A DNA stretch of 34,703 nucleotides from Rhodothermia bacterium (GTDB lineage: Bacteria; Bacteroidota; Rhodothermia; Rhodothermales; JAAAOL01), in assembly GCA_030428385.1 (NCBI GenBank), contig JAUIDY010000065.1, positions 1 through 34,703 on the forward strand. Direction: 5' to 3'. This document shows, piece by piece, positions 1,679-20,552 of the stretch. The notes beneath the pieces were generated by a model. That model was not told the origin of the DNA. It ran no database searches and saw nothing but the letters and a program-made list of their open reading frames with translations. Each line of letters starts with the position of its first letter. Position 1 is the stretch's first letter. The translations under genes and the position numbers were made by a program.

Positions 1679-3181
1679 ATGACATCACTCAAAACCATCC
1701 ATCATCCATCGCCCGTGGGACAAAACGGTCACCATACCGACGAAAGCAAGCCGCACATTGTGCTGATTGTACCGCGGGGTGAGGCGGTGCGTAACTTTAT
1801 GTACTCCGACACGCTTCGGGTCTTGAGCGAAAACGCGCGGGTCTCGTTGCTGTCCGTTATTCATGATGCTCCGTTTCAGGAGCGGTTTGGGTCGTACGTA
1901 GAGGACATCTATCCGCTCGAAAACAAAAAGTACGACGAAAACCCCTGGCTGCGGTCCATCCGTTTTATCATCCATGAAGCCCACTTTCGGTGGATCTGGA
2001 GTGAGGTGGCCAAAAACACGTGGGAACTCAGAAAAGGGAAAGCGACCACCCCGGTGCGGCAGGCGAAACGCATCGCGCTGGAGCGGCTCATTGAACCGCT
2101 CGCCAACCGGCCTACCCTGGAGGCCTTAACCAAGCTGGAAAACTACCTCAGCTACGTATTGCGCCCGGACAACACCTTTAATGAACTGTTCGCCCGGTTG
2201 AAGCCCGACCTGATCTTTAACTGCTCCCACATCCATGGCAAGGCCGCCGCTGAACTGCCTGCCAAAATTGCCTATCGGATGGGGATTCCGGTGACCGGGT
2301 TTATTTTCTCCTGGGACAACCTGACCTCGCGCAGCCGCATTTTTGTGCCCTATCATCAATACATCGTCTGGCACAACCCCATGCGGAATCAACTGCTGGA
2401 ACAATACCCGAAGATTGACCCGCAGACGGTGAAGGTAACGGGGACACCGCAATTCGACTACCATTTCAAACCAGATTACTGGCTCTCGCGGGAGGAATTG
2501 TGCCAACGGATTGGTATCGACCCGTCGCGTCCGTTTGTGTTTTACACCACCGGGCTGGATAAACACTTTCCAGATGAGCATTTCACAGTGGAACGGGTCA
2601 TTCGGCTGTTGGAAGAACTAGACCTTCCCGAAAAACCCCAACTGGTAGTGCGCACCTATGTAAAAGGCATCAGCGATGAGATGCGGGCGCTGGCAGCACG
2701 GATGGAAGACAACCCCGATGTGGTGTTTCCGCCGGTGGCCTGGGATGAGAAGTGGTACATGCCGCAGCATGAAGACTTGGCCTTGTACACCAGCCTGTTG
2801 CGCGAATGCGCCATGGGCATCAACCCGGCCTCCACGGTGTCGCTGGAACTCATGATGCACAACAAACCCGTCATCAACCTCGGCTTCGACCCGCCCGGCA
2901 GCAACCTGCCCCACCGTTTCCGCTGGATCCGGCATATCGAGTTCGACCATTTCCGCCCGGTGGCCGAAAGTGGAGGCACCATGGTGGCCTACAAGCCCGA
3001 AGACCTGGGGCCGTTTATCCAGCGCGGGATGACCCAACCCCTCGCCGACAAGGACGCACAGGATCACTTTATCGGAAGCATTTTTGGCGATACCCTCGAC
3101 GGCAATGCCAGCAAACGCGTGGCCGAACACCTCCTGCACCTGGCGCACCACTACCGTTCATTGAAAAAAACCACTTCCTGA
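1679..3181 (+). CDS. Predicted GT-B-fold glycosyltransferase (CDP-glycerol transferase-like)
   Basis: This 500-residue soluble protein begins, after a polar N-terminus, with a Rossmann-like segment (HIVLIVPRGEAVRNF, about residues 24-38). The middle contains SWDNLTSRSRIFVPY followed by VKVTGTPQFD. The C-terminal half has NPASTVSLELMMHNKPVINL, the position where GT-B enzymes carry the donor-binding 'S-T-x-x-E-x-x-x-x-x-x-P-V' pattern. The same layout occurs in CDP-glycerol glycerophosphotransferase-like and UDP-glycosyltransferase-like proteins of capsule loci. The donor and acceptor cannot be told from the sequence. Its stop is 2 bases before the next gene, a sulfotransferase, so the two are probably translated together. 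The ATG at 1679 has no strong ribosome-binding site. The transferase call is fairly likely; the exact family is uncertain. Confidence 0.62.
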   Translation: MTSLKTIHHPSPVGQNGHHTDESKPHIVLIVPRGEAVRNFMYSDTLRVLSENARVSLLSVIHDAPFQERFGSYVEDIYPLENKKYDENPWLRSIRFIIHEAHFRWIWSEVAKNTWELRKGKATTPVRQAKRIALERLIEPLANRPTLEALTKLENYLSYVLRPDNTFNELFARLKPDLIFNCSHIHGKAAAELPAKIAYRMGIPVTGFIFSWDNLTSRSRIFVPYHQYIVWHNPMRNQLLEQYPKIDPQTVKVTGTPQFDYHFKPDYWLSREELCQRIGIDPSRPFVFYTTGLDKHFPDEHFTVERVIRLLEELDLPEKPQLVVRTYVKGISDEMRALAARMEDNPDVVFPPVAWDEKWYMPQHEDLALYTSLLRECAMGINPASTVSLELMMHNKPVINLGFDPPGSNLPHRFRWIRHIEFDHFRPVAESGGTMVAYKPEDLGPFIQRGMTQPLADKDAQDHFIGSIFGDTLDGNASKRVAEHLLHLAHHYRSLKKTTS

Positions 3182-3183
3182 TC

Positions 3184-4122
3184 ATGGGCCTTGTCCACGA
3201 CCTCTTTGATCCTAAGTCGCGCCTGCGAAAAAAAGGGCAGCGATGGAAGCGGCACGTACGCTACTGGCTACAGACAAAAAGCTCGGCGGACCGTGTCTTG
3301 CCGAACTTCGTGGCGTTGGGAGGGATGCGGTGTGGGACCACCGCCTTTTTTCTGTATTTAAAAGAGCACCCGAATATTTTGCCCACGGTAAAAAAGGAAC
3401 CGCGTTTCTTCGACAACTTTATGGGCAATTACAAGCGCGGGGAGCAGTGGTACCGGGCCAACTTTCCCACCGCGTCGCAGATGGAGGACCACGCCCGGTC
3501 CGTAACCGGTCCGGTTTTGACGGGGGAAGCCACGCCCTATTACCTGTTTCATCCCAAGGCCCCCGAACGCCTCCAGGCGGTGGTTCCAGAAGCACGGTTG
3601 GTGGTGTTGCTACGGAACCCCGTGGACCGGGCCTATGCGCATTATTTCAAAAACACCCGCAAAGGCTATGAGTCGGCTTCGTTTGCCGAACGGGTAGAGC
3701 AGCTCACGGCCCTCTCGTTTGAAGAAGCCCATGCCATGTCGTTGTATGGGCTCGAACATGGGCAGGAGGCCTGGTTGGCTGCGCATGGAAAACGGTATCC
3801 GGGGGTGGAGCATCCGCATGACCTGGCTTATCTGTGCTGGGGGCACTATGCCTGGTACTTGGAGCACTGGTTAGAGGTGTTTCCCCGTGAGCAATTCCTC
3901 ATTATCAACAGCAACGCCATGTTTAGGGATGTGGCTGGAACCATGCAGCAAGCGCATGACTTTCTCGGCATTCCGCACGTTCAACTGCCCGAATATGTGA
4001 ACCGCCCCTCGAAGTATCCTAAAATGGGAGATACGGAACGCAGCCGGCTGCAGGCGTATTATGCCCCGCTCAACCAGGAGTTGGAAGCCTTACTCGGGGA
4101 ATCGATGGGCTGGGATACCTGA
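3184..4122 (+). CDS. Sulfotransferase of heparan-sulfate sulfotransferase type (ST 1)
   Basis: This 312-residue protein shows the order of motifs of NDST/3-OST-type sulfotransferases. The PAPS 5'-phosphosulfate loop is GGMRCGTT (residues 46-53). KKEPRFFDNF (70-79) carries the predicted catalytic Glu72, followed by a GxxWYxxxFP segment (86-95). GEATPYY (114-120) and the 3'-phosphate strand LLRNPVDRAYAHY (142-154) come next. It should transfer sulfate from PAPS to a sugar hydroxyl or amine in the cytoplasm. One oddity is that the serine expected in the RNPxxRxxS pattern is Ala152, while Arg144 is kept. The ATG at 3184 lies 2 bases after the preceding stop; the frame is open further upstream, but that part overlaps the preceding gene and is read as shadow. 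Family call is strong; acceptor unknown. Confidence 0.85.
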   Translation: MGLVHDLFDPKSRLRKKGQRWKRHVRYWLQTKSSADRVLPNFVALGGMRCGTTAFFLYLKEHPNILPTVKKEPRFFDNFMGNYKRGEQWYRANFPTASQMEDHARSVTGPVLTGEATPYYLFHPKAPERLQAVVPEARLVVLLRNPVDRAYAHYFKNTRKGYESASFAERVEQLTALSFEEAHAMSLYGLEHGQEAWLAAHGKRYPGVEHPHDLAYLCWGHYAWYLEHWLEVFPREQFLIINSNAMFRDVAGTMQQAHDFLGIPHVQLPEYVNRPSKYPKMGDTERSRLQAYYAPLNQELEALLGESMGWDT

Positions 4123-4171
4123 GATCATTTGTTGGCTCCGCCAGGCTAAAAGGAGCCGCTGAACAGGCATT

Positions 4172-5239
4172 ATGATACCCGTCACTTTTTTCCATCCCAA
4201 AACCGAGGATATTTCCGCCGTTCAGGGGAAAGCCGTAGACGAACTGTGGAATCAGTTTCTGCACATGACCCGCGAGTTCAACTGGGTGCTTCAGTCGGCG
4301 CTCCGGCTCCAGGAATTTGGCTATGCCGTCTCCCTCGCGTCAGAGGTGCCGGACGAAGGCATTGTGGTGGTAGGAGCCGGTTGGGCACAGAGCCAGCGTT
4401 TTCTGGAAGCGTGCCAGCAACAGAACGGCGTGGATTGGAGCAAGCTGGTGGTGGTCACGGTCAACGGCGATGCGGCGCGCTCTTTTGTGGGCGACTTCGA
4501 GATTGCTCAAAATGGACGGTATGCCGATGGAAAACGGGTTTTTTTTGTCCCTCATTGGCCCCAGCCGAACCTTGTTCCCCGCCATGCAGAACGGGGGACT
4601 ACCATTTCGAACGTGGTGTATAAAGGGGCCCCGGGCAACCTGAACGAGGCTTTTCGTTCTTCTCGCTGGCCCCGCTTTTTGGAAAGCCATGGCATAAACT
4701 GGGTGGTTGATGATCAAAAGTATGCAGATGATCCAAACGCCGTGGACTGGAATGACTATTCCGAGGCCGATGTGGTGTTGGCGGTGCGGCAGCAAATGAA
4801 CTGGTCCTATGAGCGGAAACCAGCCTCCAAGTTGGTGAATGCATGGCGCGCGGGCGTGCCTGCACTCCTCGGGCCGGAGTATGCCTATGAGGAACTGCGT
4901 GAGAGCCCGCTTGACTTTGTCACCATCCGATCGCTGGAAGAGGCCATGCATGCGATGGAGCACTTGCTTGAGCATCCGCGCCACTATCAGGCGATGGTGG
5001 AGCAAGGAAGAAGGCGTGGAGAAGCGTTTTCCCCGCAGGCCATCGCGGAACGATGGGCGTCTGTCCTTTTTGAACGCATTCCTTCCTACATTCAGCACGC
5101 GCCCATGCGTTGGGTGCAGCAATGGCCCATGCCTGCGCGCCGTGTGGTACATGCGGTGCAACGTCCGCCGCGTTGGTGGGAATGTCGTATGTGGGGAGGG
5201 AGGGTGCTGCGCAGCATGAAACGAGGCGGCGGGGAGTAA
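4172..5239 (+). CDS. Putative glycosyltransferase
   Basis: This 355-residue soluble protein has no signal peptide. The N-terminal half includes EGIVVVGAGWAQSQRFLEA, and the C-terminal half has KLVNAWRAGVPALLGPEYAY followed by SLEEAMHAMEHLLEHP. The pattern 'K-x-x-N-x-x-x-x-G-V-P', a short loop and then a helix ending in a C-terminal 'W' helix is typical of the donor-binding half of GT-B enzymes related to GT1/GT4, although the usual E-x7-E motif is not clear. It lies between two sulfotransferase genes, 49 bases after the first and 43 before the second. This fits a role in adding one sugar of the same glycan. It could instead be a glycosyltransferase-like protein without activity; the assignment is moderate. 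Confidence 0.5.
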   Translation: MIPVTFFHPKTEDISAVQGKAVDELWNQFLHMTREFNWVLQSALRLQEFGYAVSLASEVPDEGIVVVGAGWAQSQRFLEACQQQNGVDWSKLVVVTVNGDAARSFVGDFEIAQNGRYADGKRVFFVPHWPQPNLVPRHAERGTTISNVVYKGAPGNLNEAFRSSRWPRFLESHGINWVVDDQKYADDPNAVDWNDYSEADVVLAVRQQMNWSYERKPASKLVNAWRAGVPALLGPEYAYEELRESPLDFVTIRSLEEAMHAMEHLLEHPRHYQAMVEQGRRRGEAFSPQAIAERWASVLFERIPSYIQHAPMRWVQQWPMPARRVVHAVQRPPRWWECRMWGGRVLRSMKRGGGE

Positions 5240-5282
5240 ACTTTTTCTGGAAAAACATTTTTGGGGAATCAACCCAGTTTAT

Positions 5283-6179
5283 ATGCAGATACATGCCCCC
5301 ATCTTTTTGAACTGTTTCTCGCGGGGGGGAAGCAATTTGTTTTGGAATCTTTTCCTGACACACCCCGACGTATGCTCGCCGATCATCGAAACGCTGCAAA
5401 TCTTTCGGGTGGGCCTGCGCAAGCCCCGTCCGGAAGGGCTGCGGGCGGCCTGGCTCAGTCGCCAGCCTCGGTTGTTTGATCAGTGGAACCTGTCGCCGCG
5501 CTCCGTGCTGCGGCCTGCGGCCAAAACCTATATCGACGAGACGCTCTATGCCTGGAAGCTGAAGACGGTCAGCGATCTCGACATGCAGTTCAAAAACGAA
5601 AACGAACGCTACACCGAGGAAGAAGTGAAGCAGGCCCGGTTGGTGGCCAAAAACAACAACGGCCTCGCTTTTATGACCGACTGCTGGCTGGATATGTATC
5701 CCGATGCTACGTTTTTTGGGCTGGTTCGGCATCCGGTACCCTTATATGAAAGCCATAAACGCCGCAAAATTGCGTCTTCGGTCGATGATTTTGTGGGGAC
5801 CTATTGCCGGATTGCCGAGCAGATGCTGAACGACGCCGACCGGCTCGAACGCTACTTTATGGTTCGGTTTGAAGACATGCTCAAGGAGCCCATCGGGGTG
5901 ATGGAGCAGGTGTATGCGCAGGCGGGACTGGATCGGTCGCGGGTGACCAAGATCCGGTTTAAGGCCAAGGCACATTACCAGGGCGAGGGCGAACGCACCA
6001 CCACTTACGAAGAAGGACGACACTACTGGTTTGAGCCTGCCGAGATCTACAAAATGGTGGAGCCACAGATTAACCGTTTTCATGTCGCCCAGTTGGAAGA
6101 ACAGGAGCGCCTCGCCTTGCTCGAACGGACTGCCTCCGTGCGGGAGCGGCTGGGCTATGCGCAGGAGTTTGCCGTTTAA
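5283..6179 (+). CDS. Sulfotransferase family protein (ST 2)
   Basis: This 298-residue protein has a PAPS-loop-like start, CFSRGGSNLFWNLFLTHPDV (residues 11-30). The 3'-phosphate-binding strand is LVRHPVPLYESHKRRK, with Arg149 and Ser157 in the expected R-x8-S spacing. It ends in a helical C-terminal region with FMVRFEDML, a segment common in bacterial sulfotransferases ('..V.YEDL'). The glycine-rich loop differs from the textbook GTT form (GGSN), as in several bacterial sulfotransferases. It likely acts in the cytoplasm on a lipid-linked or nucleotide-linked sugar. The ATG at 5283 gives a short N-terminus before the first beta strand, as usual for the family. The following GT2 gene starts 2 bases after its stop. 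Confidence 0.75.
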   Translation: MQIHAPIFLNCFSRGGSNLFWNLFLTHPDVCSPIIETLQIFRVGLRKPRPEGLRAAWLSRQPRLFDQWNLSPRSVLRPAAKTYIDETLYAWKLKTVSDLDMQFKNENERYTEEEVKQARLVAKNNNGLAFMTDCWLDMYPDATFFGLVRHPVPLYESHKRRKIASSVDDFVGTYCRIAEQMLNDADRLERYFMVRFEDMLKEPIGVMEQVYAQAGLDRSRVTKIRFKAKAHYQGEGERTTTYEEGRHYWFEPAEIYKMVEPQINRFHVAQLEEQERLALLERTASVRERLGYAQEFAV

Positions 6180-6181
6180 TT

Positions 6182-7165
6182 ATGCCGACCAAGATGTCAC
6201 CCCAACCACAAACCGTATCGGTCGTGACGCCCACGTTTCGGCGTCCGGATGAAGTGCGAGGGCTGCTGGCCAACCTGTCTGAACAAGACCTGATGCCGCT
6301 GGAACTGGTGCTCGTTGATGGTGCCGGCGAAGACGAACGTGCCACCGAGGCGGTGGTGATGGAGATCAAAGACACGCTGCCGTTTAACTGTGTCTACATC
6401 CGCCACAGTGGCGGCACGGCCATCCAACGCAACGTGGGCATCGATGCAGCACAGGGACAATACATCGCGTTTGTGGACGACGATGTGCGGCTGGAGCCGC
6501 CGTTTTTGCGGACCCTCGTCGACGTTTTTGAACAACCGCAGCATGCCGGCGTGGGGGGCATCGTCGGCTACCGGACCACCTCTCATTTCAGTTTGCAGAG
6601 CGTGAACCGCTGGCGCTGGTACAAACGCCTGGGTCTGTTGACGACGTACGAGCCGGGGCGCTATGACTACGAGACCGGGTATCCGATCAACGCCAACTTG
6701 CAACCCCCCTTTAGCGGCGTCCGCCCCGTCGATTTTATGACCACGGCTTGTGCGTTATGGCGGTGCGAGGTGATGGATGCCGGACTGCGCTTCGATCCTT
6801 TTTTTCGCAACTATGGCATCCTGGAGGATGCACATTTCTCGCTGCGGGCGGGAAAGACGTGGAAGCTGCTCCAATGCGGCGATGCCTTGTGTGAGGAGCT
6901 ATCGTCACCCCACGGGCGCGAAGGCAGCGAGATCTTGGGCTACAAAAAGGTGATCAACTACTACTATGTGTTTCGCAGCATCGTGCAGCCCCTGACGTGG
7001 CAGCATCAGGTGCGCTTCTGGCGGTATCAATTCTTTGAGTTGGGGCGCATGTTATATTCGGGCATCACCCGCCGCCGAAGAGGGGATTTGCTTCAGGTAA
7101 AAGGCCGCCTGCGTGCGTTTCAAGACGTGGCACGTGGGGTTGCATTTGATTCGGCATCCTCCTGA
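6182..7165 (+). CDS. Glycosyltransferase family 2
   Basis: This 327-residue enzyme opens with TVSVVTPTFRRPDEVRGLL, the classic GT-A nucleotide-binding start. LVLVDGAGED follows, then IQRNVGIDAAQGQYIAFVDD, where Asp99-Asp100-Asp101 form the metal/nucleotide-sugar binding D-x-D type motif. A later GILEDAHFSLRAG segment provides the 'ED' acid pair expected for the catalytic base of inverting GT2 enzymes. No membrane helices are evident, so it is a cytoplasmic or peripheral transferase adding one sugar to a lipid-linked acceptor. It starts 2 bases after the ST 2 stop and is followed after 40 bases by ST 3, continuing the glycosyltransferase/sulfotransferase alternation. Donor sugar cannot be inferred. 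Confidence 0.9.
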   Translation: MPTKMSPQPQTVSVVTPTFRRPDEVRGLLANLSEQDLMPLELVLVDGAGEDERATEAVVMEIKDTLPFNCVYIRHSGGTAIQRNVGIDAAQGQYIAFVDDDVRLEPPFLRTLVDVFEQPQHAGVGGIVGYRTTSHFSLQSVNRWRWYKRLGLLTTYEPGRYDYETGYPINANLQPPFSGVRPVDFMTTACALWRCEVMDAGLRFDPFFRNYGILEDAHFSLRAGKTWKLLQCGDALCEELSSPHGREGSEILGYKKVINYYYVFRSIVQPLTWQHQVRFWRYQFFELGRMLYSGITRRRRGDLLQVKGRLRAFQDVARGVAFDSASS

Positions 7166-7205
7166 CCACTTACTGAAGCAAAGGGGGTAACTTTAAACGA
7201 AGGAA

Positions 7206-8192
7206 ATGACGACGCAAGGAGCACAATCTGCCAAGCATAAACCGTTGTGGAAGCGGGGAGGGGTACAGCGCAAGGTAGCCCTTCCGTTTAATATGGTGCG
7301 GAACGCCCTTCCTATTGCCCGCATGATGGGGAGCGACGCCGCGCCCTATGCTGTCGATGGGAAACGGCTGCTCTTTTCCATCAACTCGGGCCGTGCCGGC
7401 TCTAAATATTTATACCGCCTGCTGGACACGGCTGCCAACGTAACGGCCACGCACGAGCCCAAACCCTCGATGGCGGGCCGTTACGTGATCGAGTATCCGG
7501 TAAGCGATCCGGGTCTGCTGGATTCCCTGTTTTATTACGGGGTGATGTGCCCGCACAAGTTTGAGAAAGTCCGCCATTTGCAGCAGGTACTCGCCGATTT
7601 GCCAGCGAATCATGTCTATGCCGAGACGACGCACATGTTTATCCTGTCGTTTTACGACGTGGTAATGGCCGCTTTTGGCGAGTCAGTGTCGGTCGTGATT
7701 ATGCGGCGGCATTTGCCCAAGGTGGTCAAGAGCATGGTGTCGCTGGGCGATTTTGGAAAGCGTCGCAACTGGCGGTTCTGGCGGTCGTCGCCCAATGCCC
7801 GCAGTGCGGCGGTGCAGGCCGCCGCGCCGGATGCCGAACTTGATCAGATGGATATGGCGATTGCCTACCTGATCGATGTGGAGGCACGGGCCCAGCGTTT
7901 TAAGCAACAGTTTCCCCACATCAACACGGTGGAAGTACGGGTGGAAGCCCTGAATGATTGGGAAACCGTGTCGCAGGTGTTCGAGCAGCTGAACCTGGAA
8001 CCGAGCGATGCCACGCATGAGATCCTGGGAACGGTGGTCAACCAACGCCACAAAAAGAAGAAGGAGATGGACCAGGAGATTTCGGAGGAATACTGCCTGG
8101 AGCGGATCCAGCAATACTGTGCCCGGTGCGAGGCCCAAGGCATCCAGTTGCCCGACTTGCCGCAACTCACCCCGTTTCCGGAGGCTGCATGA
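7206..8192 (+). CDS. Sulfotransferase-like protein (ST 3)
   Basis: This 328-residue protein has a basic N-terminus of about 50 residues. A P-loop-like LLFSINSGRAGSKYLYRLL follows (core SGRAGSK, residues 61-67) and then HEPKP. The second motif is VVIMRRHLPKVVKSM, where Arg167 or Arg168 and Ser176 fit the 3'-phosphate binding pattern of PAPS-dependent enzymes. Later VEVRVEALNDWETVSQVFE matches the helix after the conserved 'V.VE.L' strand. The loop is GSK instead of GTT, so it belongs to a divergent branch; a kinase-like P-loop protein is a less likely alternative. Its stop overlaps the next start in an ATGA arrangement, indicating translational coupling with the GT4 gene. A purine-rich AAGGA lies almost directly against the ATG. 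Confidence 0.65.
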   Translation: MTTQGAQSAKHKPLWKRGGVQRKVALPFNMVRNALPIARMMGSDAAPYAVDGKRLLFSINSGRAGSKYLYRLLDTAANVTATHEPKPSMAGRYVIEYPVSDPGLLDSLFYYGVMCPHKFEKVRHLQQVLADLPANHVYAETTHMFILSFYDVVMAAFGESVSVVIMRRHLPKVVKSMVSLGDFGKRRNWRFWRSSPNARSAAVQAAAPDAELDQMDMAIAYLIDVEARAQRFKQQFPHINTVEVRVEALNDWETVSQVFEQLNLEPSDATHEILGTVVNQRHKKKKEMDQEISEEYCLERIQQYCARCEAQGIQLPDLPQLTPFPEAA

Positions 8193-9310
8193 GGCGTTGT
8201 TTTTTTATTGCCACCAGTTGGCGCGACCGGGCCGTGCCCAAACACTTTAAAGCCCTCGCCCAGCGCCTGGCAGACCGGGGGCATCGGGCGGTGGTGTTTA
8301 TTGATGGCAAGAAAAAAGAAATGGAGGTGCCGCAGGGTAACCCGGCCGTACTCTCGTGGCCGTCCGTCCGCCCCACCACCCTCAAAGATGCCCGGTTTCT
8401 GTGGGAAACCATTCGCCAGTATCGCCCCGATGCGCTGGTGGCTAACTTTGGGGCCGTGAATCTATTCAGCATGGTGGGATGGATGACCGGAGTGACCGGG
8501 CGGATTGTGTGGGAACGGACCCTCAGCGCACAGCACGACATCGACAATGAAAAGGCGGAGTGGGTGCGCTCCTTTCGGCAATTTCGGCGGCGGCTGGTAT
8601 ATGCCGCCGCCACCCATGTGGTAGCCAACTCCGAGGCTACCCTGGCCGACGTAACGGGCCATTACCGCGTGCCCGCCTCCAAATGTCTCGTCTTTCATAA
8701 CGCCTTACCTGATCCGTTGGACAAATATCCTGCGCTGGTGGGACAAGAGAAAGTAGAGAACCGGGTGGTGTGTGTGGGCCGACACGATTATTCCAAGGGG
8801 CAGGATGTGCTCTTGCATGCCATCGCGGAGGTCAGAAAAGTGATACCTGACGTGGAACTGGTGCTGGTAGGCGACGGCGATTTTCGTCCTACCTTGGAAG
8901 CCTTGGCGGCCGAATTGGGCATCGCAGAAAACTGCCAGTTTGTGGGAGGCGTGGAGCATGAAGCGGTGTTCCATCACATGGCAAAGGCCAGTGTAACTGT
9001 GGTGCCTAGCCGGAGTGAGGCCTTTGGCTGGGTGAATGCGGAGTCGATGGCGGTTTGTACCCCCGTCATAGGAGCGGCTGTTGGGGGAATCCCCGAAATT
9101 ATTCGGGAGGGCGTGGATGGATATCTGGTGCCGCCCGACGATGCGGCCACGCTTGCCGAACGGCTCATTCGGCTGTTGCAAGACAAAAAAAGCCAGGCGC
9201 AGATGGGGCAACAGGCCCGCCAGCGCTTCCTTGATCATTTTGAGCAATCGCACATGCTGGACCGGCAGGTGCAGTGGCTGGAAACCCTCACTGAATCACC
9301 CGTGGCCTAG
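8189..9310 (+). CDS. Glycosyltransferase family 4
   Basis: This 373-residue GT-B enzyme starts with MRRCFFIATSWRDRAVPKHF at the ATG at 8189, which overlaps the ST 3 stop by 4 bases; the frame extends further up but only over ST 3. The C-terminal domain begins at VVCVGRHDYSKGQDVLLHAI, has ELVLVGDGD, and carries the family signature EAFGWVNAESMA with Glu277 and Glu285 in E-x7-E spacing. AVGGIPEIIREGVDGYLVPP follows it. These are the retaining GT4 donor-binding features. The protein should act at the cytoplasmic face of the membrane. Specific donor and linkage are unknown. Confidence 0.92.
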   Translation: MRRCFFIATSWRDRAVPKHFKALAQRLADRGHRAVVFIDGKKKEMEVPQGNPAVLSWPSVRPTTLKDARFLWETIRQYRPDALVANFGAVNLFSMVGWMTGVTGRIVWERTLSAQHDIDNEKAEWVRSFRQFRRRLVYAAATHVVANSEATLADVTGHYRVPASKCLVFHNALPDPLDKYPALVGQEKVENRVVCVGRHDYSKGQDVLLHAIAEVRKVIPDVELVLVGDGDFRPTLEALAAELGIAENCQFVGGVEHEAVFHHMAKASVTVVPSRSEAFGWVNAESMAVCTPVIGAAVGGIPEIIREGVDGYLVPPDDAATLAERLIRLLQDKKSQAQMGQQARQRFLDHFEQSHMLDRQVQWLETLTESPVA

Positions 9311-9348: not shown

Positions 9349-10422
9349 ATGAGTAAACGAACCTATCTGGTAGGGACCCACTCTTTTTTGTTTGCCCTTG
9401 ACCTGGATGCCAACTGGCAGGTTGAGGGGTACCGCATTCTGCATGACGGGCATCACTACGGGATTGCTTTTTATGAAGACAACGGGCGAAAATTTCTTGC
9501 CAAGCAACCTCATTCCAGCGGAAACGAGGTGAACCTGTTTGAGGCCCAGCCGCCCTACGAGCATCTGGGAACCCGGGCCTTCGAGGACATCAGCAAGTCG
9601 CACCAGATGTCTGTTGCGAACGGCGGGATTTACATCACCAATACGGGCTGTAACAGCATTGTGTATTACAGCATGGACGGGGAGACCCGGCATGAGTATC
9701 ACATCAACGGGGCAAAGCATGACCGCAACCACGTAAACTCGGTGTTTCCTTGCGGCAATCAGGTGTATGCGTTGCTCCACAACAGCTTTCGGCGGGTGAG
9801 CCAACTGGTGGTTTTGGAGCATGCCCCGGAGACCGGGTTTACGCTCCGGCACATGCTTGATCTGTGGAACGAAGGGTGCCACAACATCTACGTGGAAGAG
9901 GACCTGCTCTACTACAATTCGTCGCAGACAGGCCAGTTTGTGGCGGTGGATTTAAAGACGGAGAAGGTGATCCAGAAACTCCGGTATCCCGAAAGCGCGT
10001 CGGGTAAGTTTGTCCTGGATACCCATGATCATCACACCAAGGGAATGGCCGTCACAGAGGATCACGTCGTGGTTGGGTTTTCCCAGCAGGCGTCACGGGA
10101 GGCACGGCGTCGCACACGCGGCCACCTCGCCGTGATTGACCGCCACAGCCTCACCACCCAGGCAATCATCGACCTGAACTTTCCCGATCTTCCGCATCCT
10201 GCGGGTAATGTGAATGAAGTCCGGTGCCTGTCAGAACCCGATCTCGGGCAGGCAAACGCCAACCCGCTGGCTGTGGATTGGGGCCAGTTGAAATTAGCGC
10301 GTCGCAATGGGCTGGAATATGCCCGCACCAACGCCCTGGTGGTGGTACGAAACCTGGGCAAGGTAGGCAAAAAAGTGACCGAGCGTATTTTCCCCAGCCT
10401 GTTTCCTCAAATCGGTGAGTAG
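9349..10422 (+). CDS. Beta-propeller-like protein of unknown function
   Basis: This 357-residue protein has no signal peptide, membrane helix or known catalytic motif that I can recognise. It shows repeated units of 40-50 residues built from beta strands with aromatic and small residues, such as YLVGTHSFLFALDLD, GIYITNTGCNSIVYYSMDG, NIYVEEDLLYYNSSQTG and GMAVTEDHVVVGFSQQ. This pattern is expected of a six-bladed propeller. Histidines recur at repeat junctions (GHHYGIA-like, KHDRNHVNSV, DTHDHHTKGMAV), which could form a metal or ligand site on one face. Its place between GT4 genes, 38 bases after one and 9 before the next, argues for a job in making the polymer. It may relate to uncharacterised propeller families seen with glycosyltransferases (TIGR03032/DUF4915-like), but I cannot confirm that. 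Confidence 0.7.
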   Translation: MSKRTYLVGTHSFLFALDLDANWQVEGYRILHDGHHYGIAFYEDNGRKFLAKQPHSSGNEVNLFEAQPPYEHLGTRAFEDISKSHQMSVANGGIYITNTGCNSIVYYSMDGETRHEYHINGAKHDRNHVNSVFPCGNQVYALLHNSFRRVSQLVVLEHAPETGFTLRHMLDLWNEGCHNIYVEEDLLYYNSSQTGQFVAVDLKTEKVIQKLRYPESASGKFVLDTHDHHTKGMAVTEDHVVVGFSQQASREARRRTRGHLAVIDRHSLTTQAIIDLNFPDLPHPAGNVNEVRCLSEPDLGQANANPLAVDWGQLKLARRNGLEYARTNALVVVRNLGKVGKKVTERIFPSLFPQIGE

Positions 10423-10431
10423 GAGCGTATC

Positions 10432-11592
10432 GTGAAGCTCGTTGTTGTTTCCCACAAGCAGGGCTGGCCCGATGCGGACGCCCCATCGGGCTATGTGACC
10501 GATGGCGGGTTTCCCTATCACATGCAGGCCGTCTCGAACCTGTTCGACGAGACCGAGGTAGTGATGCCGATTGCCATGGCGCCTTCGCCTCCGGGCACGG
10601 GGGCGTTGCGTGGACATCGGTTGCGTATTCTTCCGTTGGTGCCGCCTGCACAAGGTGGGGGCCGCCGCAAGAGTTTGGTGAAGGTCTTGCCTGCCAACCT
10701 GGGCCGTATCTGGAAAGCCGTCCAGCAGGCCGACGCGGTGCACGTGCCCGTTCCGGGCGATATCGGCATGATGGGAATTCTGGTCGCGCTTATTCAGCGC
10801 AAACGCCTGTTTGTGCGTCACTGCGGAAACTGGCTGGTGCAGCGCTCTCCCGCCGAGCACCTGCTTAAGTTTATCATGGAGCGATTTGCAGGAGGACGCA
10901 ATGTGATGCTGGCGACAGGAGGTGGGGTCGCGCCCCCGTCTGCAAAAAACCCAGCGATCAAGTGGATCTTTTCCTCGGGGCTTACGCGGGCCGATTTGAA
11001 GAAGTATGGCGCGCCTCGTACCCAACTTCCCAAGCAGCCACGACTTGTCATCGCCTGCCGCCAGGAGCGCAACAAAGGCACCCACCTTGTCATCGAGAGC
11101 CTGCCCGACGTGATGCAGGCGTTTCCGGGCGTTCATTTAGAGGTGGTAGGTGATGGCCGCGCCTTGCCCGACCTGAAGCAACAAGCCGAGGCGCTCGGTG
11201 TGGCAGACCACGTGACGTTTCATGGGCGGCTTCCACACAAAGGGGTGTTGGAACGCATGCAAGCAGCCGATCTGTTTTGTTACCCCACCCAGTCGCCCGA
11301 AGGGTTTCCCAAGGTGGTGTTGGAGGCCCTGGCGAGCGGGTTGCCGGTGATCACCACCGCGGTATCCGTGTTGCCCCACCTCATCGGTGACCGTTCCGGG
11401 CACATTCTGGACGAGGTGACGCCTGCTGCCATGGCAACAGCCATTCGCCACTGCCTCGCCGACGAGACGCGTTATGTGCGGATGTCGCAGCAGGCGGTGG
11501 AGACGGCGGCGCAGTATTCGTTGGAGGCGTGGGAAGAAACCATTGGTGGGTATCTGGAAGCCGCCTGGGGGCCGTTGCGCAGCGATGGTTGA
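10432..11592 (+). CDS. Glycosyltransferase family 4
   Basis: This 386-residue GT-B protein uses a GTG start at 10432, with a good AGGAG ribosome site overlapping the previous stop codon. The N-terminal domain starts MKLVVVSHKQG. The C-terminal domain contains LVIACRQERNKGTHLVIESL, LEVVGDGRALPDL and the GT4 signature SPEGFPKVVLEALASGLPVI, with Glu290 and Glu298 in E-x7-E spacing. It is predicted to transfer a sugar from a nucleotide donor to a lipid-linked glycan in the cytoplasm. It overlaps the next GT4 gene by 8 bases. No feature defines the sugar. Confidence 0.92.
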   Translation: MKLVVVSHKQGWPDADAPSGYVTDGGFPYHMQAVSNLFDETEVVMPIAMAPSPPGTGALRGHRLRILPLVPPAQGGGRRKSLVKVLPANLGRIWKAVQQADAVHVPVPGDIGMMGILVALIQRKRLFVRHCGNWLVQRSPAEHLLKFIMERFAGGRNVMLATGGGVAPPSAKNPAIKWIFSSGLTRADLKKYGAPRTQLPKQPRLVIACRQERNKGTHLVIESLPDVMQAFPGVHLEVVGDGRALPDLKQQAEALGVADHVTFHGRLPHKGVLERMQAADLFCYPTQSPEGFPKVVLEALASGLPVITTAVSVLPHLIGDRSGHILDEVTPAAMATAIRHCLADETRYVRMSQQAVETAAQYSLEAWEETIGGYLEAAWGPLRSDG

Positions 11593-12685
11593 TCTGGCGT
11601 CGATAAAGGTGTGTTTTCTCGCTGGATCGCTGGGGCAGGGCGGTGCCGAGCGGCAGCTTTATTATATGGCAACCACCCTACATGAAGAGGGCGCCCAGGT
11701 ACAGGTGTTGTCGCTTACCCAGGGTGAGTATTGGGAAGCGCCGCTTCAGGCAGCGGGCGTGCCCGTTCACTGGGTGGGCAAGGCCTCGTCGCGTCTCCAG
11801 CGCATGCAGGCCATCTGGAGGCACCTGCGGGCGTTTCGGCCCCACATCGTGCAAAGCCAGCATTTTTTTGCCAACCTGTATGCCACCGTACCTGCGTGGT
11901 TGCTAGGGCTGAAAGAAGTGGGCGGGATTCGAAATGATGTGTTTAGTGAGGTGAAACAAGGCGGGGCCTTACTGGGGCGGTGTAATCTCTGGCTGCCTCG
12001 GGTTTTAGCCGCCAACTCCCGCCAGGCCCTCGCCAATGCCCAACGCCTGGGGGTGAACGCCCGCCGGTTGCACTTTTTGCCGAACGTGGTTGACACCGAT
12101 CGCTTTCGTCCGGTTACGAAAAAGAAAGAAGGCCCCGTTTGCCTTGCCGCCATTGGACGGTTGGTGCCCCAAAAACGGATGGACCGATTTATCGATGTGT
12201 TGGCGGGCCTCGTGCAGCAAGGATTGCCCGTGAAGGGCCTGATTGTAGGAGGCGAACGCGTCGGGCATGTGGTCCGGGATCAACTACAAACGCAGGCAAA
12301 GACGCTGGGATTGGGACCTACGGTGCTTGAATTCAAGGGCGAAGTTGGGGATATTACATCCATCTATCAGCAGGCCGACGTGTTGGTGCTGACCTCTGAC
12401 TGGGAGGGAACGCCCAACGTGGTGCTCGAAGCAATGGCCGCTGGGATACCCGTCGTCGCCAGCGCCGTAGGCGGAGCCGTAGAACTGATTGAAGATGGAG
12501 AGACCGGCTTTTTGCTCTCTCCTGATGACCGGTCGGGGTACAGGGCCCGCTTGGCGTTGCTCATAGAAGACATCGCGCAACGGGAACGCATGGGGAAGGC
12601 CGCTCGTCAGCGTGCGGTAGAACTTTACTCGTGCTCAAGCTTATCTCTGTCTTTCCGTAGCCTCTATTCCAAGGTGCTGAAGTGA
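11585..12685 (+). CDS. Glycosyltransferase family 4
   Basis: This 366-residue GT-B enzyme has an N-terminal FLAGSLGQGGAERQLYYMA, the 'GGAER' loop common to GT4 enzymes. A C-terminal domain includes LAAIGRLVPQKRMDRFIDVL and SDWEGTPNVVLEAMAAGIPV, where Glu274 and Glu282 form the E-x7-E pair. VGGAVELIEDGETGFLLSP follows. I chose the ATG at 11585, inside the end of the previous gene (8-base overlap), because it places the first beta strand about seven residues in, normal for the family. The frame is open further upstream, but that would bury it in the neighbour. Its stop overlaps the GTG start of the polymerase by 4 bases. Confidence 0.92.
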   Translation: MVDLASIKVCFLAGSLGQGGAERQLYYMATTLHEEGAQVQVLSLTQGEYWEAPLQAAGVPVHWVGKASSRLQRMQAIWRHLRAFRPHIVQSQHFFANLYATVPAWLLGLKEVGGIRNDVFSEVKQGGALLGRCNLWLPRVLAANSRQALANAQRLGVNARRLHFLPNVVDTDRFRPVTKKKEGPVCLAAIGRLVPQKRMDRFIDVLAGLVQQGLPVKGLIVGGERVGHVVRDQLQTQAKTLGLGPTVLEFKGEVGDITSIYQQADVLVLTSDWEGTPNVVLEAMAAGIPVVASAVGGAVELIEDGETGFLLSPDDRSGYRARLALLIEDIAQRERMGKAARQRAVELYSCSSLSLSFRSLYSKVLK

Positions 12686-14142
12686 ATACCTACGTGTCTC
12701 CCTTAACACAGACCATGGCGCAGCTTCGGCTGGATGGGACCTCTTCGCAGCGTTATTCTGGCATCTTTAACGCGCAGAATTACATCCTCCTGTTGATTGG
12801 GCACGGGTTCTTGGGGCTCATCTTTCGTTATGTGCCTAGTATTTCGGAGCTGTACGCGTTTTTTCTTATCGCATTGGGGATCTGGTGGGGCTATAACAAG
12901 CGGCTTGATCTGGTTGCCTATTGGGGCGCGTACTTTGTGGGGATGGAGACCTTGTTCCGTATGACGAAAGGGAATCCCATTCATGAGTTTGGAAAATATG
13001 GGATCTTCTTTGTGTTTCTGTTTGCCCTCCTTCGTTCGGGGCGACGCGGCAAATGGGTAACCCCGGCGCTCTACATGCTCTTCCTGTTGCCGGGGGCGTT
13101 GTATACCATTACCGCCTTGCCCTTTGTGCAAGGACGACAGGCGGTGAGCGGGGTGTTGGCCGGGCCTTTTGCACTGGCGATGAGCATCATTTTTTACTCT
13201 TCTATTCGGTTCGAAAGAAAACACTTGGTTCGGCTCATAATGGCAGGCATTCTGCCGGTTATGGGCATCTCCTTTATTGCCTTGTTTTCTACCGTCAGTG
13301 CCGAACGCATCCACTTCTCCACAAACTCAAACAAAGCGACCAGCGGGGGGTGGGGGCCTAATCAGGTGTCCTCGGGGCTTGCCTTTGGGGCATATATGGC
13401 CTTTATGGGGTATATCTTTGAGCGCGACCGGAAAAAAGTCCGGGTGCTGATGTTGTTCTTGTTGTTGCTTCTATTCTCGCAGGCCGCCATGACCTTCTCG
13501 CGAAGCGGACCGTATCTGGTCGTGGGCTCTATTGCCGTAGCGTCTGTTTTTTACCTGCGCAGCCTGAGGGCCCAAATCAGTATGGTGATAGGGGCCGGGA
13601 TCGTGGTGCTGCTCATGAACTTTGTCATCTTTCCCCAACTGAATGAGTTCACGGGGGGCGCGTTTGAAGCGCGTGTGGTGCAGGACCGTGACCTGTCTGG
13701 GCGGGATAATATTGCCGAGAGCGACTTGCTCATGTTTAAGGAGCATCCCGTCTGGGGAGTTGGGGCAGGCATGTCCGAGCGACAGCGCGAGATCATGTTC
13801 AACGTGTATAATGCCAGCCGCGACCATACCGAGTTTACCAGGCTGTTAGCAGAGCATGGGATATTCGGCGCCGGTGCGATGCTGATTATGCTTTTCTTTA
13901 TCATTCAGGCGTTTGTGACGACGAGAAATCCGTATATGAAGGCCTTTCGCATGTCGGCGTCTGGCTGGGCTGTCGCCTATATGCTCGTGAATGCAACCCG
14001 CCTTGCCGCCCCTGCTTTCCTGTTTGGGGTCGCGTTCATGACCCTCTTCCTCGAAGAAGATATTGAACGCATTCAGCGACAATGGAACATAAAACGAAGG
14101 CAGACCGAGCGAAGGAGGAAGGCACATCTTGCACGGCGTTGA
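12682..14142 (+). CDS. Wzy-type polysaccharide polymerase / O-antigen ligase family
   Basis: This 486-residue integral membrane protein has about ten to twelve hydrophobic segments. A large loop in the second half carries SRDHTEFTRLLAEHGIFGAG, the Wzy_C/O-antigen-ligase signature (H-x-E-x-x-x-x-L-x-E-x-G-x-x-G). The family joins undecaprenyl-linked repeat units in the periplasm, or ligates finished chains. In this cluster, with a phosphoglycosyl transferase and many glycosyltransferases, polymerase is the more likely role. The start is a GTG whose last bases overlap the preceding TGA. The C-terminus is very basic (KRRQTERRRKAHLARR) and should stay cytoplasmic. The flippase normally paired with it is not in this window. 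Confidence 0.85.
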   Translation: MNTYVSPLTQTMAQLRLDGTSSQRYSGIFNAQNYILLLIGHGFLGLIFRYVPSISELYAFFLIALGIWWGYNKRLDLVAYWGAYFVGMETLFRMTKGNPIHEFGKYGIFFVFLFALLRSGRRGKWVTPALYMLFLLPGALYTITALPFVQGRQAVSGVLAGPFALAMSIIFYSSIRFERKHLVRLIMAGILPVMGISFIALFSTVSAERIHFSTNSNKATSGGWGPNQVSSGLAFGAYMAFMGYIFERDRKKVRVLMLFLLLLLFSQAAMTFSRSGPYLVVGSIAVASVFYLRSLRAQISMVIGAGIVVLLMNFVIFPQLNEFTGGAFEARVVQDRDLSGRDNIAESDLLMFKEHPVWGVGAGMSERQREIMFNVYNASRDHTEFTRLLAEHGIFGAGAMLIMLFFIIQAFVTTRNPYMKAFRMSASGWAVAYMLVNATRLAAPAFLFGVAFMTLFLEEDIERIQRQWNIKRRQTERRRKAHLARR

Positions 14143-14189: not shown

Positions 14190-15260
14190 ATGGGCACCCT
14201 TTCAATCCCCAAGCATATCGGCATATTGAATTTGGAGCAAGGCGGTATAGAAGAGACATCACAAGAGTCGACGGGCACGCCCTTGCGGGTGCTAATGGTG
14301 ACCAGCCAGTGGCCCGACGAGGAAAACCCGAACCGGGTGCCGTTTATTGTCCGGCAGGTGGACTATCTGCGGGAGGCAGGAGTGCATCTGGATGTCTTCT
14401 ACTTTATTGGGCGGTGGCATCCCATTCGGTATCTAAAGGCGGCCCAGGAAGTACGGCGCCGCGCTGCGGCCTATGATGTGGTGCACGCCCGGTTTGCGCA
14501 GGCCGGACTCGTGGCCCTTCCTCAAAAACACGCTCCCGTCGTGATCACCTATGGCGGTACCGACGTGTTGGGGCGGCGCAATCAGGAGGGACGCCTCACC
14601 CTTGGCGGGTGGATTCAGCAACAAATTGCACAGTACGTCGCCCGGCGTGTGGATGCCAACATCGTTGTCTCTCAAAATCTGGCGGAGGCGCTCTCGTTTG
14701 TGCCAACCATCCTGATTCCAGATGGCATCGACATGCGCTTTTTTAAGCCGATGGACCAGGCCGAAGCGCGTCAGCAACTGGGGCTGTCCCCCGATGCCAA
14801 GATCGTGGTGTTTGTTGGTGATCCGCAGGGCGGACGTGACAAGAAGCGGTACGGGCTGGCCAAGGAAGTGGTGGAGCTTGCGCAGCAACAGATCCCCGAA
14901 CTCGAACTGGTAGCGGTGTATGGACGCCCGCACCAGGAGATGCCGCTGTTTATGAACGCTGCCGATGTGCTGCTGCTCACCTCGCGCTCCGAAGGCTCGC
15001 CCAATGTGGTGAAGGAGGCGCTGGCGTGTAATACGCCGGTTGTGTCCGTGGATGTGGGGGATGTGCGCGAGCGGCTAGAACACATCGAAGGATGTGCCGT
15101 CAGTGACTCGGACGCCCCCGAAGCGATTGTTGAAGCGTTGGTGCGCACGGTGAAGGAAAACATCGCCATTGATGGCCGCACAGCGGTGGCTCCCCTCGAC
15201 GAATACGAGTCGGCCCGCAAAACCATCGGGGTGTATCAGCAGGTGCTGGGGCGTGGTTGA
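14190..15260 (+). CDS. Glycosyltransferase family 4
   Basis: This 356-residue GT-B enzyme has a roughly 30-residue N-terminal extension before the first strand, LRVLMVTSQWPDEENPNR. The N-terminal domain has VVHARFAQAGLVALP and VVITYGGTDVLGRRN. The donor domain contains LLLTSRSEGSPNVVKEALAC, with Glu268 and Glu276 in E-x7-E spacing, followed by NTPVVSVDVGDVRE. The ATG at 14190 has an AAGGCGGTGAAG stretch nearby. A start at 14280-14300 would remove only the extension and cannot be excluded. It sits after the polymerase, separated by 47 bases, and is followed by two sulfotransferase genes. Confidence 0.9.
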   Translation: MGTLSIPKHIGILNLEQGGIEETSQESTGTPLRVLMVTSQWPDEENPNRVPFIVRQVDYLREAGVHLDVFYFIGRWHPIRYLKAAQEVRRRAAAYDVVHARFAQAGLVALPQKHAPVVITYGGTDVLGRRNQEGRLTLGGWIQQQIAQYVARRVDANIVVSQNLAEALSFVPTILIPDGIDMRFFKPMDQAEARQQLGLSPDAKIVVFVGDPQGGRDKKRYGLAKEVVELAQQQIPELELVAVYGRPHQEMPLFMNAADVLLLTSRSEGSPNVVKEALACNTPVVSVDVGDVRERLEHIEGCAVSDSDAPEAIVEALVRTVKENIAIDGRTAVAPLDEYESARKTIGVYQQVLGRG

Positions 15261-15288
15261 TGACGCAATCAACAAGAGTGCACCCGTC

Positions 15289-16158
15289 ATGACGCAGACC
15301 AGTCGCACCCTCCCTTCATTTATTGGCATCGGTCCGGGAAGGACAGGCACCTCGTTCATTTATGAGGTGCTGCGCCACCATCCCGAGGTTCGGATGGCGC
15401 ACGGGACCAAGGAGACCAACTACTTCAGCCACGAATACCATCGCGGCCCGGACTGGTACGCGGCTTTTTTTGAAGGCACCGAGGCTGCCCGCGCCGTTGG
15501 CGAGATCGCGAACGTCTATTTTTATGATCCCGCCGTGCCAGCCCGCATCCACGAACTGTTGCCAGACGTGCGGCTGTTTTCCTGCCTGCGTAATCCGTTT
15601 GAACGGCTGCGTTCGGTGTTTCTGTACCGCCAGCGCTCGCATGAACTGCCGGGCTCTATCACCCTGAATGAAGCCGTGGCCCAAGACCCGGACCTGACCG
15701 CGCACAGTCGATATGCGACGCTGTGGGGCGGATACCGCTCCGTGTTTCCCGATGCCCAGCGGTTGCTGCTCTTTTATGACGATCTGGAAGCTGACCCTGA
15801 GGCATTTATCGAGCAGCTTTTGAGGTTCATCAGGGTGTCGCCGACCGTAGATCCAGAGCGGTTAGCCACCCGCGTTAACCCGAGCGCTGTTCCGCGATCC
15901 CGGTTGGTCAGCGGATTGGCCGCGGGAACGTCACGGGTGTTGCGGCAGGTGGGATTGCTGGGCGTGCTGGACGCGGCAAAACGCACCGCATGGATCCGGA
16001 AGGCGGTCTTAAAACCCGCTGCCGCTGAAACGCGGGCCGAACTGATGCTAAACGATGCCACGGCCTCGCGTTTGCTGGAGGCCTGGACGCCTGAAGTGCG
16101 CCAGATCGAATCCTGGACGGGCCGTTCGCTGGATCATTGGCTGGTGCCCAACCCGTAA
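15289..16158 (+). CDS. Sulfotransferase of heparan-sulfate sulfotransferase type (ST 4)
   Basis: This 289-residue protein has FIGIGPGRTGTSFIYEVLRH (PAPS loop GPGRTGTS, residues 15-22). KETNYFS (41-47) carries the predicted catalytic Glu42, and a GPDWYAAFF segment follows. VGEIANVYFYDP comes next, then LRNPFERLRSVF with Arg101 and Ser109 in the standard 3'-phosphate site. This is the same subfamily as ST 1, but with the serine intact. I chose the ATG at 15289 because it places the PAPS loop close to the N-terminus as in relatives; an in-frame GTG at 15253 would overlap the previous gene. The final helix ends with ESWTGRSLDHWL, a tail common in this subfamily. Confidence 0.85.
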   Translation: MTQTSRTLPSFIGIGPGRTGTSFIYEVLRHHPEVRMAHGTKETNYFSHEYHRGPDWYAAFFEGTEAARAVGEIANVYFYDPAVPARIHELLPDVRLFSCLRNPFERLRSVFLYRQRSHELPGSITLNEAVAQDPDLTAHSRYATLWGGYRSVFPDAQRLLLFYDDLEADPEAFIEQLLRFIRVSPTVDPERLATRVNPSAVPRSRLVSGLAAGTSRVLRQVGLLGVLDAAKRTAWIRKAVLKPAAAETRAELMLNDATASRLLEAWTPEVRQIESWTGRSLDHWLVPNP

Positions 16159-16162: not shown

Positions 16163-17182
16163 ATGCCGATTTTTATCGTGGGGTACATGCACTCGGGGAC
16201 GACGCTGCTGCGCAACATCGCGGCACGGGCAGAGGGCGTTTACACCATCGCGCACGAAACCAAATTTTTTGAGCGCATCGCGCTGTTCAAAAAGCAATAC
16301 CCCGACCTGCACGATGCGGCCACGTTGCAGGCATACGTGCAGGCCCTGCTGGCACAAGGCACGGACGAAACCATTGACGCCAACCGTATAATCGAAGCAC
16401 TTCCTGAAGATCAGGGGCGGACGCATGATGCCGTGTTTGGGGGGGTCTTTGATGTGCTAGCGCAGCAGGCTGGCAAGGCCGTTTGGCTGGAGAAGACACC
16501 GGGCCATATCTTCCGCATTAAGGATATCCTGGCAGCCTTCCCCGAGGCCCGAATCATAGAAATCGTGCGGGACCCCCGCGACGTGCTGGCGTCCAAAAAA
16601 ACCCGCCGGGCGACGGTGTGGACGACCCAGCGGTACGACGCCACGCAGCGGGCGGATAAACATTTGGAGAAGGCCTACGATCCGTTGTGGGATACATTAT
16701 CTTGGAAAGCTGCCCTTCAGGCCGGACAGCAGGCACAAACGCTTTATCCTGATCATCTGCATACGGTGCGCTACGAAGACCTGATTCAGCAACCCGAAGC
16801 CACGGTGCAGACCGTCTGTGACTTTCTGGGGCTTTCATTTGTCCCAGCCATGATGGAAGTTCCTGCGGGTATTGCGGCAGACTGGAAGGGAGAGCCTGCC
16901 GAGGGCGGCGTCCGCAAGGACTCGCTCGCACGCTGGAAGGCAGTGTTAAACGAATCGGAAGTAGCACTCTGCCAGCGGCTGGTCGGCGACGAGATGCAGC
17001 AGATGCACTATGCGCTGATGCCCATTGCGCTGGCGCAGTATGCCGGAGTGCTCCCGCTGCTGCTGCGCAGCATGCTGGATCTGCTGCGGCGAATCTATCA
17101 CCGGGGGCGGCAGCATGGCATGGCGTATATGTTTAATGTGGTGCGGGGCTACCTGCATCGCCTCAAAAGATTGGCAACCTAG
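16163..17182 (+). CDS. Sulfotransferase family protein (ST 5)
   Basis: This 339-residue protein begins MPIFIVGYMHSGTTLLRNIA, with a clear PAPS loop GYMHSGTT at residues 7-14, followed by HETKFFE. The second PAPS motif is IIEIVRDPRDVLASKK, with Arg136 and Ser144, and the later LHTVRYEDLIQQPEATVQTV matches the conserved 'RYEDL' helix start. This set is characteristic of the Sulfotransfer_3 family. Its ATG lies 4 bases after the ST 4 stop; upstream frame extension overlaps ST 4 and is not used. The C-terminal 60 residues contain an amphipathic/hydrophobic stretch (YAGVLPLLLRSMLDLL) followed by basic residues, suggesting membrane association. Confidence 0.85.
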   Translation: MPIFIVGYMHSGTTLLRNIAARAEGVYTIAHETKFFERIALFKKQYPDLHDAATLQAYVQALLAQGTDETIDANRIIEALPEDQGRTHDAVFGGVFDVLAQQAGKAVWLEKTPGHIFRIKDILAAFPEARIIEIVRDPRDVLASKKTRRATVWTTQRYDATQRADKHLEKAYDPLWDTLSWKAALQAGQQAQTLYPDHLHTVRYEDLIQQPEATVQTVCDFLGLSFVPAMMEVPAGIAADWKGEPAEGGVRKDSLARWKAVLNESEVALCQRLVGDEMQQMHYALMPIALAQYAGVLPLLLRSMLDLLRRIYHRGRQHGMAYMFNVVRGYLHRLKRLAT

Positions 17183-18522: not shown

Positions 18523-18571
18523 TTTTTGATTGTTTTCTCGTTTGAATGAGCAGCAGTGATACCGCAACTCC

Positions 18572-18576
18572 GGAGG
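18572..18576 (+). promoter_or_regulatory. Ribosome binding site that decides the start of the next GT
   Basis: GGAGG lies 5 bases before the ATG at 18582. The in-frame ATG 36 bases upstream (18546) has no purine-rich site. This favours the downstream start. Confidence 0.6.
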
Positions 18577-18581
18577 CAACG

Positions 18582-19891: not shown

Positions 19892-20548
19892 ATGAGTAAA
19901 TCGGTATTGGTCATCGCCGCCCATCCCGACGACGAAATTCTGGGGTTGGGAGGGACCATTCGCAACCATGTGTTAGCGGGCGATACGGTGCATTCCGTCG
20001 TTATGTGCGAAGGAACGTCGGTGCGCTATGAAGGCATGGATGTGCCGCAGCGCGTCCACGGGCACGCCGCCGCTGAGATTCTGGGTGTGACCTCCTTCGA
20101 GATGCTGAGCTTCCCGGATCAGAAGCTGGACACGCTCAACCTGATGGAGGTCATTTCACCGATTGAGGAGCGTGTCCGCAAACACCAACCGCAGATCGTG
20201 TACACGCACTTTGGGCAAGACCTCAACCGCGACCACCAGATCCTGTGTGAAGCCGTGCTGGTGGCCTGCCGCCCGGTGGAGCCTTGCGTCGAGGCGATTT
20301 ATGCGTACGAGACGCCCAGCTCCACCGAGTGGAACACGCCGATCCGGTTTGTGCCGAACCACTTCGTCGACATCAGCGAGACGCTGGAGACCAAGCTGGA
20401 AGCGTTTGCCTGCTACGAGTCGGAGGTGCGCCCATATCCGCATCCTCGTTCGTTGCAACACCTGCGGCACCGCGCTCACTACTGGGGCAACCTGATGTAT
20501 ATGCACGCCGCCGAGGCGTTTGTCACCTACCGCACCCTCTGGCGCTGA
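19892..20548 (+). CDS. PIG-L family N-deacetylase
   Basis: This 218-residue protein has the zinc-binding start VLVIAAHPDDEILGLGGTI (His11, Asp13-Asp14-Glu15). The third expected zinc ligand, His115, lies in FGQDLNRDHQIL. These are the defining features of the PIG-L/LmbE/MshB family, which removes N-acetyl groups from amino sugars in lipid- or nucleotide-linked form. It starts 8 bases after the WbuB-like GT and ends 4 bases before the phosphoglycosyl transferase, so its substrate is probably an early lipid-linked amino sugar of this glycan. Deacetylation would leave a free amine that could be sulfated or charged. Confidence 0.88.
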   Translation: MSKSVLVIAAHPDDEILGLGGTIRNHVLAGDTVHSVVMCEGTSVRYEGMDVPQRVHGHAAAEILGVTSFEMLSFPDQKLDTLNLMEVISPIEERVRKHQPQIVYTHFGQDLNRDHQILCEAVLVACRPVEPCVEAIYAYETPSSTEWNTPIRFVPNHFVDISETLETKLEAFACYESEVRPYPHPRSLQHLRHRAHYWGNLMYMHAAEAFVTYRTLWR

Positions 20549-20552
20549 TCCC

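Follow-up and report, generated by a model that had tools for sequence, protein, structure and literature searches.

Little is understood about sulfated bacterial polysaccharides, and for all of them it is a general question at what point in assembly each sulfotransferase (ST) acts. The question is raised by a contig of a Rhodothermia bacterium (JAUIDY010000065.1, here C37), on which seven genes at 1679–9310 alternate between glycosyltransferases (GTs) and STs: does this order tell which ST serves which sugar, and at what step? The window analysed here is the complete 34,703-base contig, one of 245 in a draft genome of 6.19 Mb. We found that the C37 cluster is an ordinary though ST-rich example of a known cluster type; the alternation is a real observation, and the inference of paired action drawn from it is mostly unsupported.

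A seven-gene run of glycosyltransferases and sulfotransferases

The sequence-only reading had described this stretch as tightly spaced genes in the order GT, ST, GT, ST, GT2, ST, GT4 (GT2 and GT4 being GT families 2 and 4), and the coordinates bear out the positions, order and spacing. The successive junctions measure 2, 49, 43, 2, 40 and −4 bases:

1679–3181, + strand: GT_A, divergent glycosyltransferase (NCBIfam BFO_1060 GT, E 4e-11, under cut-off)
3184–4122, + strand: ST_A, sulfotransferase of the 3′-phosphoadenosine-5′-phosphosulfate (PAPS) type (PF13469/PF00685)
4172–5239, + strand: GT_B, glycosyltransferase of the Glyco_trans_1_2 family (PF13524)
5283–6179, + strand: ST_B, sulfotransferase (PF13469, E 8.5e-13)
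6182–7165, + strand: GT_C, family 2 glycosyltransferase (PF00535, E 5e-20)
7206–8192, + strand: ST_C, divergent sulfotransferase (37.9 bits against an ST profile built without it)
8189–9310, + strand: GT_D, family 4 glycosyltransferase, with an ATGA overlap with ST_C (PF00534, E 1e-43)

The tightest junctions are GT_A to ST_A, ST_B to GT_C and ST_C to GT_D, which leaves GT_B alone and gives no fixed register to the pairing. Pfam backs five of the labels (ST_A, GT_B, ST_B, GT_C and GT_D), and ST_A and ST_B, like ST_D and ST_E further downstream, match sulfotransferase profiles above the Pfam cut-off. The predicted labels of GT_A and ST_C, neither of which has a Pfam match, stand on weaker evidence than the other five. 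For GT_A this is the weak NCBIfam match listed above, and for ST_C it is the score against a profile of 93 other STs (E 3.6e-10), together with motifs that align with theirs, a P-loop-like SGRAGSKYL and a PAPS-binding 3′-phosphate motif RRHLPKVVKS. Single-sequence AlphaFold2 folds were too poor for use (predicted local distance difference test scores of 41 for ST_C and 39 for GT_A), and a PDB sequence search returned nothing useful. Single-protein searches with GT_A and ST_C gave weak matches only across the order and class, and tblastn with the same two proteins gave no match in plasmids. A two-row GT_A profile gave matches in 32 genomes, among them that of the window, and the GT_A relatives in the 31 other genomes are located in polysaccharide clusters.

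PAPS motifs, namely the 5′-phosphosulfate-binding (5′-PSB) loop and the 3′-phosphate-binding R...S, are present in ST_B, ST_C, ST_D and ST_E. In ST_A the near-invariant 3′-phosphate-binding Ser, kept in 139 of the 145 ST rows of the motif alignment, is replaced by Ala; its closest relatives retain the Ser, and a loss or change of activity is possible. We also considered whether STs and GTs differ visibly in base composition and rejected this, as overall GC and GC at third codon positions (GC3) overlap between the two.

The alternation does not exceed chance

The sequence-only reading called the alternation strict, which holds for the seven genes and fails immediately downstream. After 9310 the order is GT_D, olfactomedin-like gene, GT_E, GT_F, Wzy, GT_G, ST_D, ST_E, so that GT comes to adjoin GT and, later, two STs stand in tandem. 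When GT and ST labels were shuffled among the cluster's own GT/ST slots, a run of 7 had p=0.016. Because this run had been picked for looking striking, we brought in 23 further clusters that each hold two or more STs and two or more GTs, drawn largely from the window's order, class and phylum; they were labelled with profiles built in the analysis on mechanical open reading frame (ORF) calls, some GTs of other families being scored as ‘other’. Across these, GT-ST neighbours numbered 49 against 51.2 expected, ST-ST neighbours were in slight excess (24 against 19.3, P 0.076) and the longest alternation was 5. With the window included, GT-ST adjacency over all 24 clusters was 56 against 55.6 expected, and the probability of at least one run of 7 or more among them was p=0.13. 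Thus, the seven-gene alternation is real, yet no more than chance gives.

Relatives of the paired genes have other partners

If each ST served the neighbouring GT, as the sequence-only reading proposed, GT-ST pairs would be expected to recur in related genomes. An ST adjoins 1 of 32 genes of the GT_A family (the window's excluded), and in 21 of the 32 loci the gene directly downstream is a GT4. The lone case with an ST neighbour (locus L145, 8319–9710, ST 1 base downstream) was rejected as a conserved GT_A-ST_A pair, as the ST tree places its ST outside the ST_A clade (support by the SH-like approximate likelihood ratio test, SH-aLRT, 98). For GT_B, an ST lies next door in 2 of 26 relatives (genome and plasmid loci, 27–42% identical), a count that leaves out 3 of the 22 loci of one search in which the GT_B gene was lost in the mechanical ORF call. 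These two are in metagenome-assembled genomes (MAGs) of a Salinibacteraceae member (L109) and a Thiohalocapsa (L128), and the two relatives in Salinivenus, at a distance similar to that of L109, have no ST neighbour. Members of the ST_A clade neighbour a methyltransferase with a heparinase II/III, other STs, TPR proteins, an ABC transporter and a GT4, and none was seen beside a GT_A or GT_B. The sole plasmid relative of ST_B is preceded by a GT4 instead of a GT_B or GT2, and the only relative of ST_C outside the window among the matches listed starts an ST-ST-ST-GT4-ST run. As relatives of GT_A, GT_B, ST_A and ST_C have other partners, these genes have largely been reshuffled independently of one another, which the sequence-only reading had itself named as grounds for refutation. 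With adjacency at chance as well, an ST dedicated to its neighbouring GT is not supported.

The five STs of the cluster are scattered across the ST tree, many deep forks of which are open, and are therefore not local duplicates; local ST duplication as the source of the alternation was rejected on this tree. Elsewhere in the same genome, a second polysaccharide cluster (L062 on contig C137, 549–4335) contains a paralogue of ST_A, flanked by a methyltransferase gene on one side and a heparinase II/III-like gene on the other.

The surrounding polysaccharide cluster

The polysaccharide gene run spans 2 to 28,004 on the + strand and comprises five STs, about eight GTs, a Wzy and a priming sugar transferase. 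Outside the seven genes above, its features and the adjoining Wzi-like gene are as follows:

2–1642, + strand: EpsG-like multi-pass membrane protein that may be a second polymerase and is cut by the contig end (PF14897 EpsG, weak and under cut-off; many hydrophobic segments)
9349–10422, + strand: olfactomedin-like protein of beta-propeller type, at which the alternation stops (PF02191, E 1e-4, slightly under cut-off)
10432–11592, + strand: GT_E, family 4 glycosyltransferase (PF00534)
11585–12685, + strand: GT_F, family 4 glycosyltransferase adjoining GT_E (PF00534)
12682–14142, + strand: protein of the Wzy-type polymerase / O-antigen ligase family (PF04932, E 7e-12)
14190–15260, + strand: GT_G, family 4 glycosyltransferase (PF13692)
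15253–16158, + strand: ST_D, sulfotransferase (PF00685/PF13469)
16163–17182, + strand: ST_E, sulfotransferase in tandem with ST_D (PF13469, E 1e-35)
17203–18522, + strand: UDP-sugar 6-dehydrogenase, uronic acid supply (TIGR03026)
18546–19883, + strand: GT_H, family 4 glycosyltransferase (PF13579/PF00534)
19892–20548, + strand: PIG-L family deacetylase (PF02585)
20520–21230, + strand: priming polyprenyl-phosphate sugar transferase (PF02397, E 1e-57; EPS_sugtrans)
23022–26424, + strand: DegT aminotransferase and CapD/PglF-like 4,6-dehydratase, amino-sugar supply
26607–28004, + strand: second UDP-sugar dehydrogenase, of the UDP-N-acetylhexosamine (UDP-HexNAc) type
28009–29670, − strand: Wzi-like outer-membrane capsule assembly protein (PF14052, E 2e-13)

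The PF04932 protein is Wzy-type and a putative polymerase or ligase. The olfactomedin-like protein sits within the GT run. Between 26607 and 32983 the UDP-HexNAc dehydrogenase is accompanied by a MocA-type 3-dehydrogenase, a DegT aminotransferase and a hexapeptide acetyltransferase, a predicted set that resembles WbpA/B/E/D, for 2,3-diacetamido uronic acid. On another contig of the genome (C102, locus L071; 3150 bases) a GT4, an ST and a Wzx-type flippase adjoin one another, which could be a broken-off piece of the C37 cluster or another capsule cluster.

Sulfation probably precedes export

We detected no transmembrane or signal segments in the STs of the seven-gene run; ST_E carries a single hydrophobic window, which is borderline. 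As PAPS is found in the cytosol and polymerisation by Wzy takes place in the periplasm, the lipid-linked unit is likely sulfated in the cytoplasm, with the timing, the acceptor and the sulfated product all predicted. The soluble appearance of the STs, the Wzy, the priming transferase and the single adenosine 5′-phosphosulfate (APS) kinase encoded by the genome make this part of the sequence-only reading plausible. Its further claim that sulfation is stepwise does not follow, as gene order cannot tell stepwise action from action on the full unit. Nor is the build order unusual, as had been suggested, since cytoplasmic sulfation is the route expected from a cytosolic donor and a periplasmic polymerase. 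Such sulfation on lipid-linked units has already been modelled for synechan (PMC8205485).

In the explanation that we favor, and consider probable as a whole, the cluster would be part of a Wzy-dependent capsule or exopolysaccharide (EPS) locus whose product is a sulfated, uronic-acid-containing heteropolysaccharide. The priming transferase would begin the repeat unit on the lipid carrier, cytosolic GTs would then extend it, and up to five soluble PAPS-dependent STs would sulfate it in the cytoplasm before it is flipped and polymerised. The STs and GTs may have been recruited singly or as small changing blocks, from different sources, and the seven-gene alternation would be one outcome of this accretion that tells neither the target sugar of each ST nor whether GT and ST steps alternate.

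Linkage between sulfotransferases and glycosyltransferases

Several observations weigh against this explanation. We found no Wzx flippase on the contig; the cluster is incomplete, as the contig begins inside a gene, and several PF13440 flippases are on other contigs of the same genome. The neighbor comparisons were made at 23–45% identity, not among close relatives of the window species. Over 39 adjacent ST-GT4 pairs, GT and ST relatedness are weakly correlated (Mantel r 0.11, P 0.03), a signal that comes from a single block kept in three genomes. This block (GT, unassigned gene, GT, ST, GT) is common to L084, L093 and L095, which represent three genera of one family within the window's order. 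Two sister STs stand between the same GTs in L084, and an additional ST and an additional GT lie inside the block in L095, so that GT-ST-GT blocks appear able to persist as the ST number and neighbors shift. Lastly, the window's own genome encodes an ST-GT4 fusion in a single ORF (L061 on contig C165, 7880–10135, − strand), with an N-terminal Sulfotransfer_3 domain at 111–281 and a C-terminal Glycos_transf_1 domain at 554–718. This fusion is a physical ST-GT link in one case and no rule: the matches listed for class genomes and for plasmids include no second one, and our literature search turned up no publication on paired or fused GT and ST genes. The fusion and the three-genera block hint at functional ST-GT modules. 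We regard it as unlikely that this lineage contains ST-GT couples of that sort, in which sulfation gates the next glycosylation, and that the run was assembled from them.

The core shared by L084, L093 and L095 illustrates how an alternating order, or STs in tandem, may arise. On a plasmid of Parasedimentitalea psychrophila (L103), two GT-ST couples with 4-base overlaps occur in one EPS cluster, their STs belonging to different clades.

A stronger form of pairing would have each ST sulfate the sugar of its neighbor GT, the pairs being inherited functional units in an obligate stepwise glycosylation and sulfation on the lipid carrier. Gene order and tight spacing speak for it, as do the 1-base junction in L145, the GT-ST-GT block kept in three genera of one family and the fusion. 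However, the ST at L145 lies outside the ST_A clade, there is no ST next to 31 of the 32 GT_A relatives or 24 of the 26 for GT_B, adjacency is at chance, the conserved block itself holds two sister STs in one genome and an extra ST and GT in another, and ST_D and ST_E stand in tandem in the very same cluster, all of which makes this quite improbable. A sub-case of our favored explanation, to which we give somewhat less than an even chance, is that the STs act, without a set order, on completed lipid-linked units that are still cytoplasmic and yet to be flipped, with no dependence between ST and GT steps. This agrees with the soluble, cytosolic appearance of the STs, with tandem STs and chance gene order, and with the synechan sulfotransferase mutant xssE, which still made EPS and bloomed, but not with the xssA mutant, which lost bloom formation and had suppressed EPS accumulation (PMC8205485), a phenotype which suggests that, in one system at least, later steps depend on an ST step.

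It is also conceivable, if doubtful, that some of the STs act on another molecule (a lipid, a protein or a second polysaccharide) or that ST_A is weak or inactive, its location being incidental. The Ser missing from ST_A fits this, as do the 21 PF13469 matches spread over many contigs of the genome, but all five STs are co-directional in one polysaccharide run with short gaps.

Discussion

Were GT-ST modules real, sulfation sites would be predictable from gene order; the present data do not support this, and they caution against reading the order of GT and ST genes as the order of action. The C37 cluster adds an ST-rich example outside Cyanobacteria. Close parallels within its own order are the ST-rich clusters L084, L093, L095 and L210, which likewise intersperse several STs each with GT4 and GT2 genes, but in which the longest alternation is 5 and tandem STs are common.

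Among characterized systems, the synechan xss cluster of Synechocystis sp. PCC 6803 resembles C37 in being of the Wzx/Wzy EPS type with multiple GTs and STs. It has two STs, eight GTs, and both Wzx and a polysaccharide copolymerase (PCP) in the cluster (PMC8205485), whereas C37 has five STs, about eight GTs, a Wzi and uronic- and amino-sugar genes, no Wzx on the contig, and a product that is predicted only. The sulfated capsule cluster of Vibrio sp. KMM 8419 shares GT, ST and sulfate-activation genes and differs in its ABC-transporter export, its PAPS genes within the cluster and its fewer STs; its chain is proposed to grow by addition of a sulfated sugar on which the next GT acts (PMC11641403). 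Cobetia marina KMM 1449 similarly has a marine capsule cluster with GT and ST genes and a PAPS supply, but with ABC export and PAPS genes within the cluster (PMC11766843).

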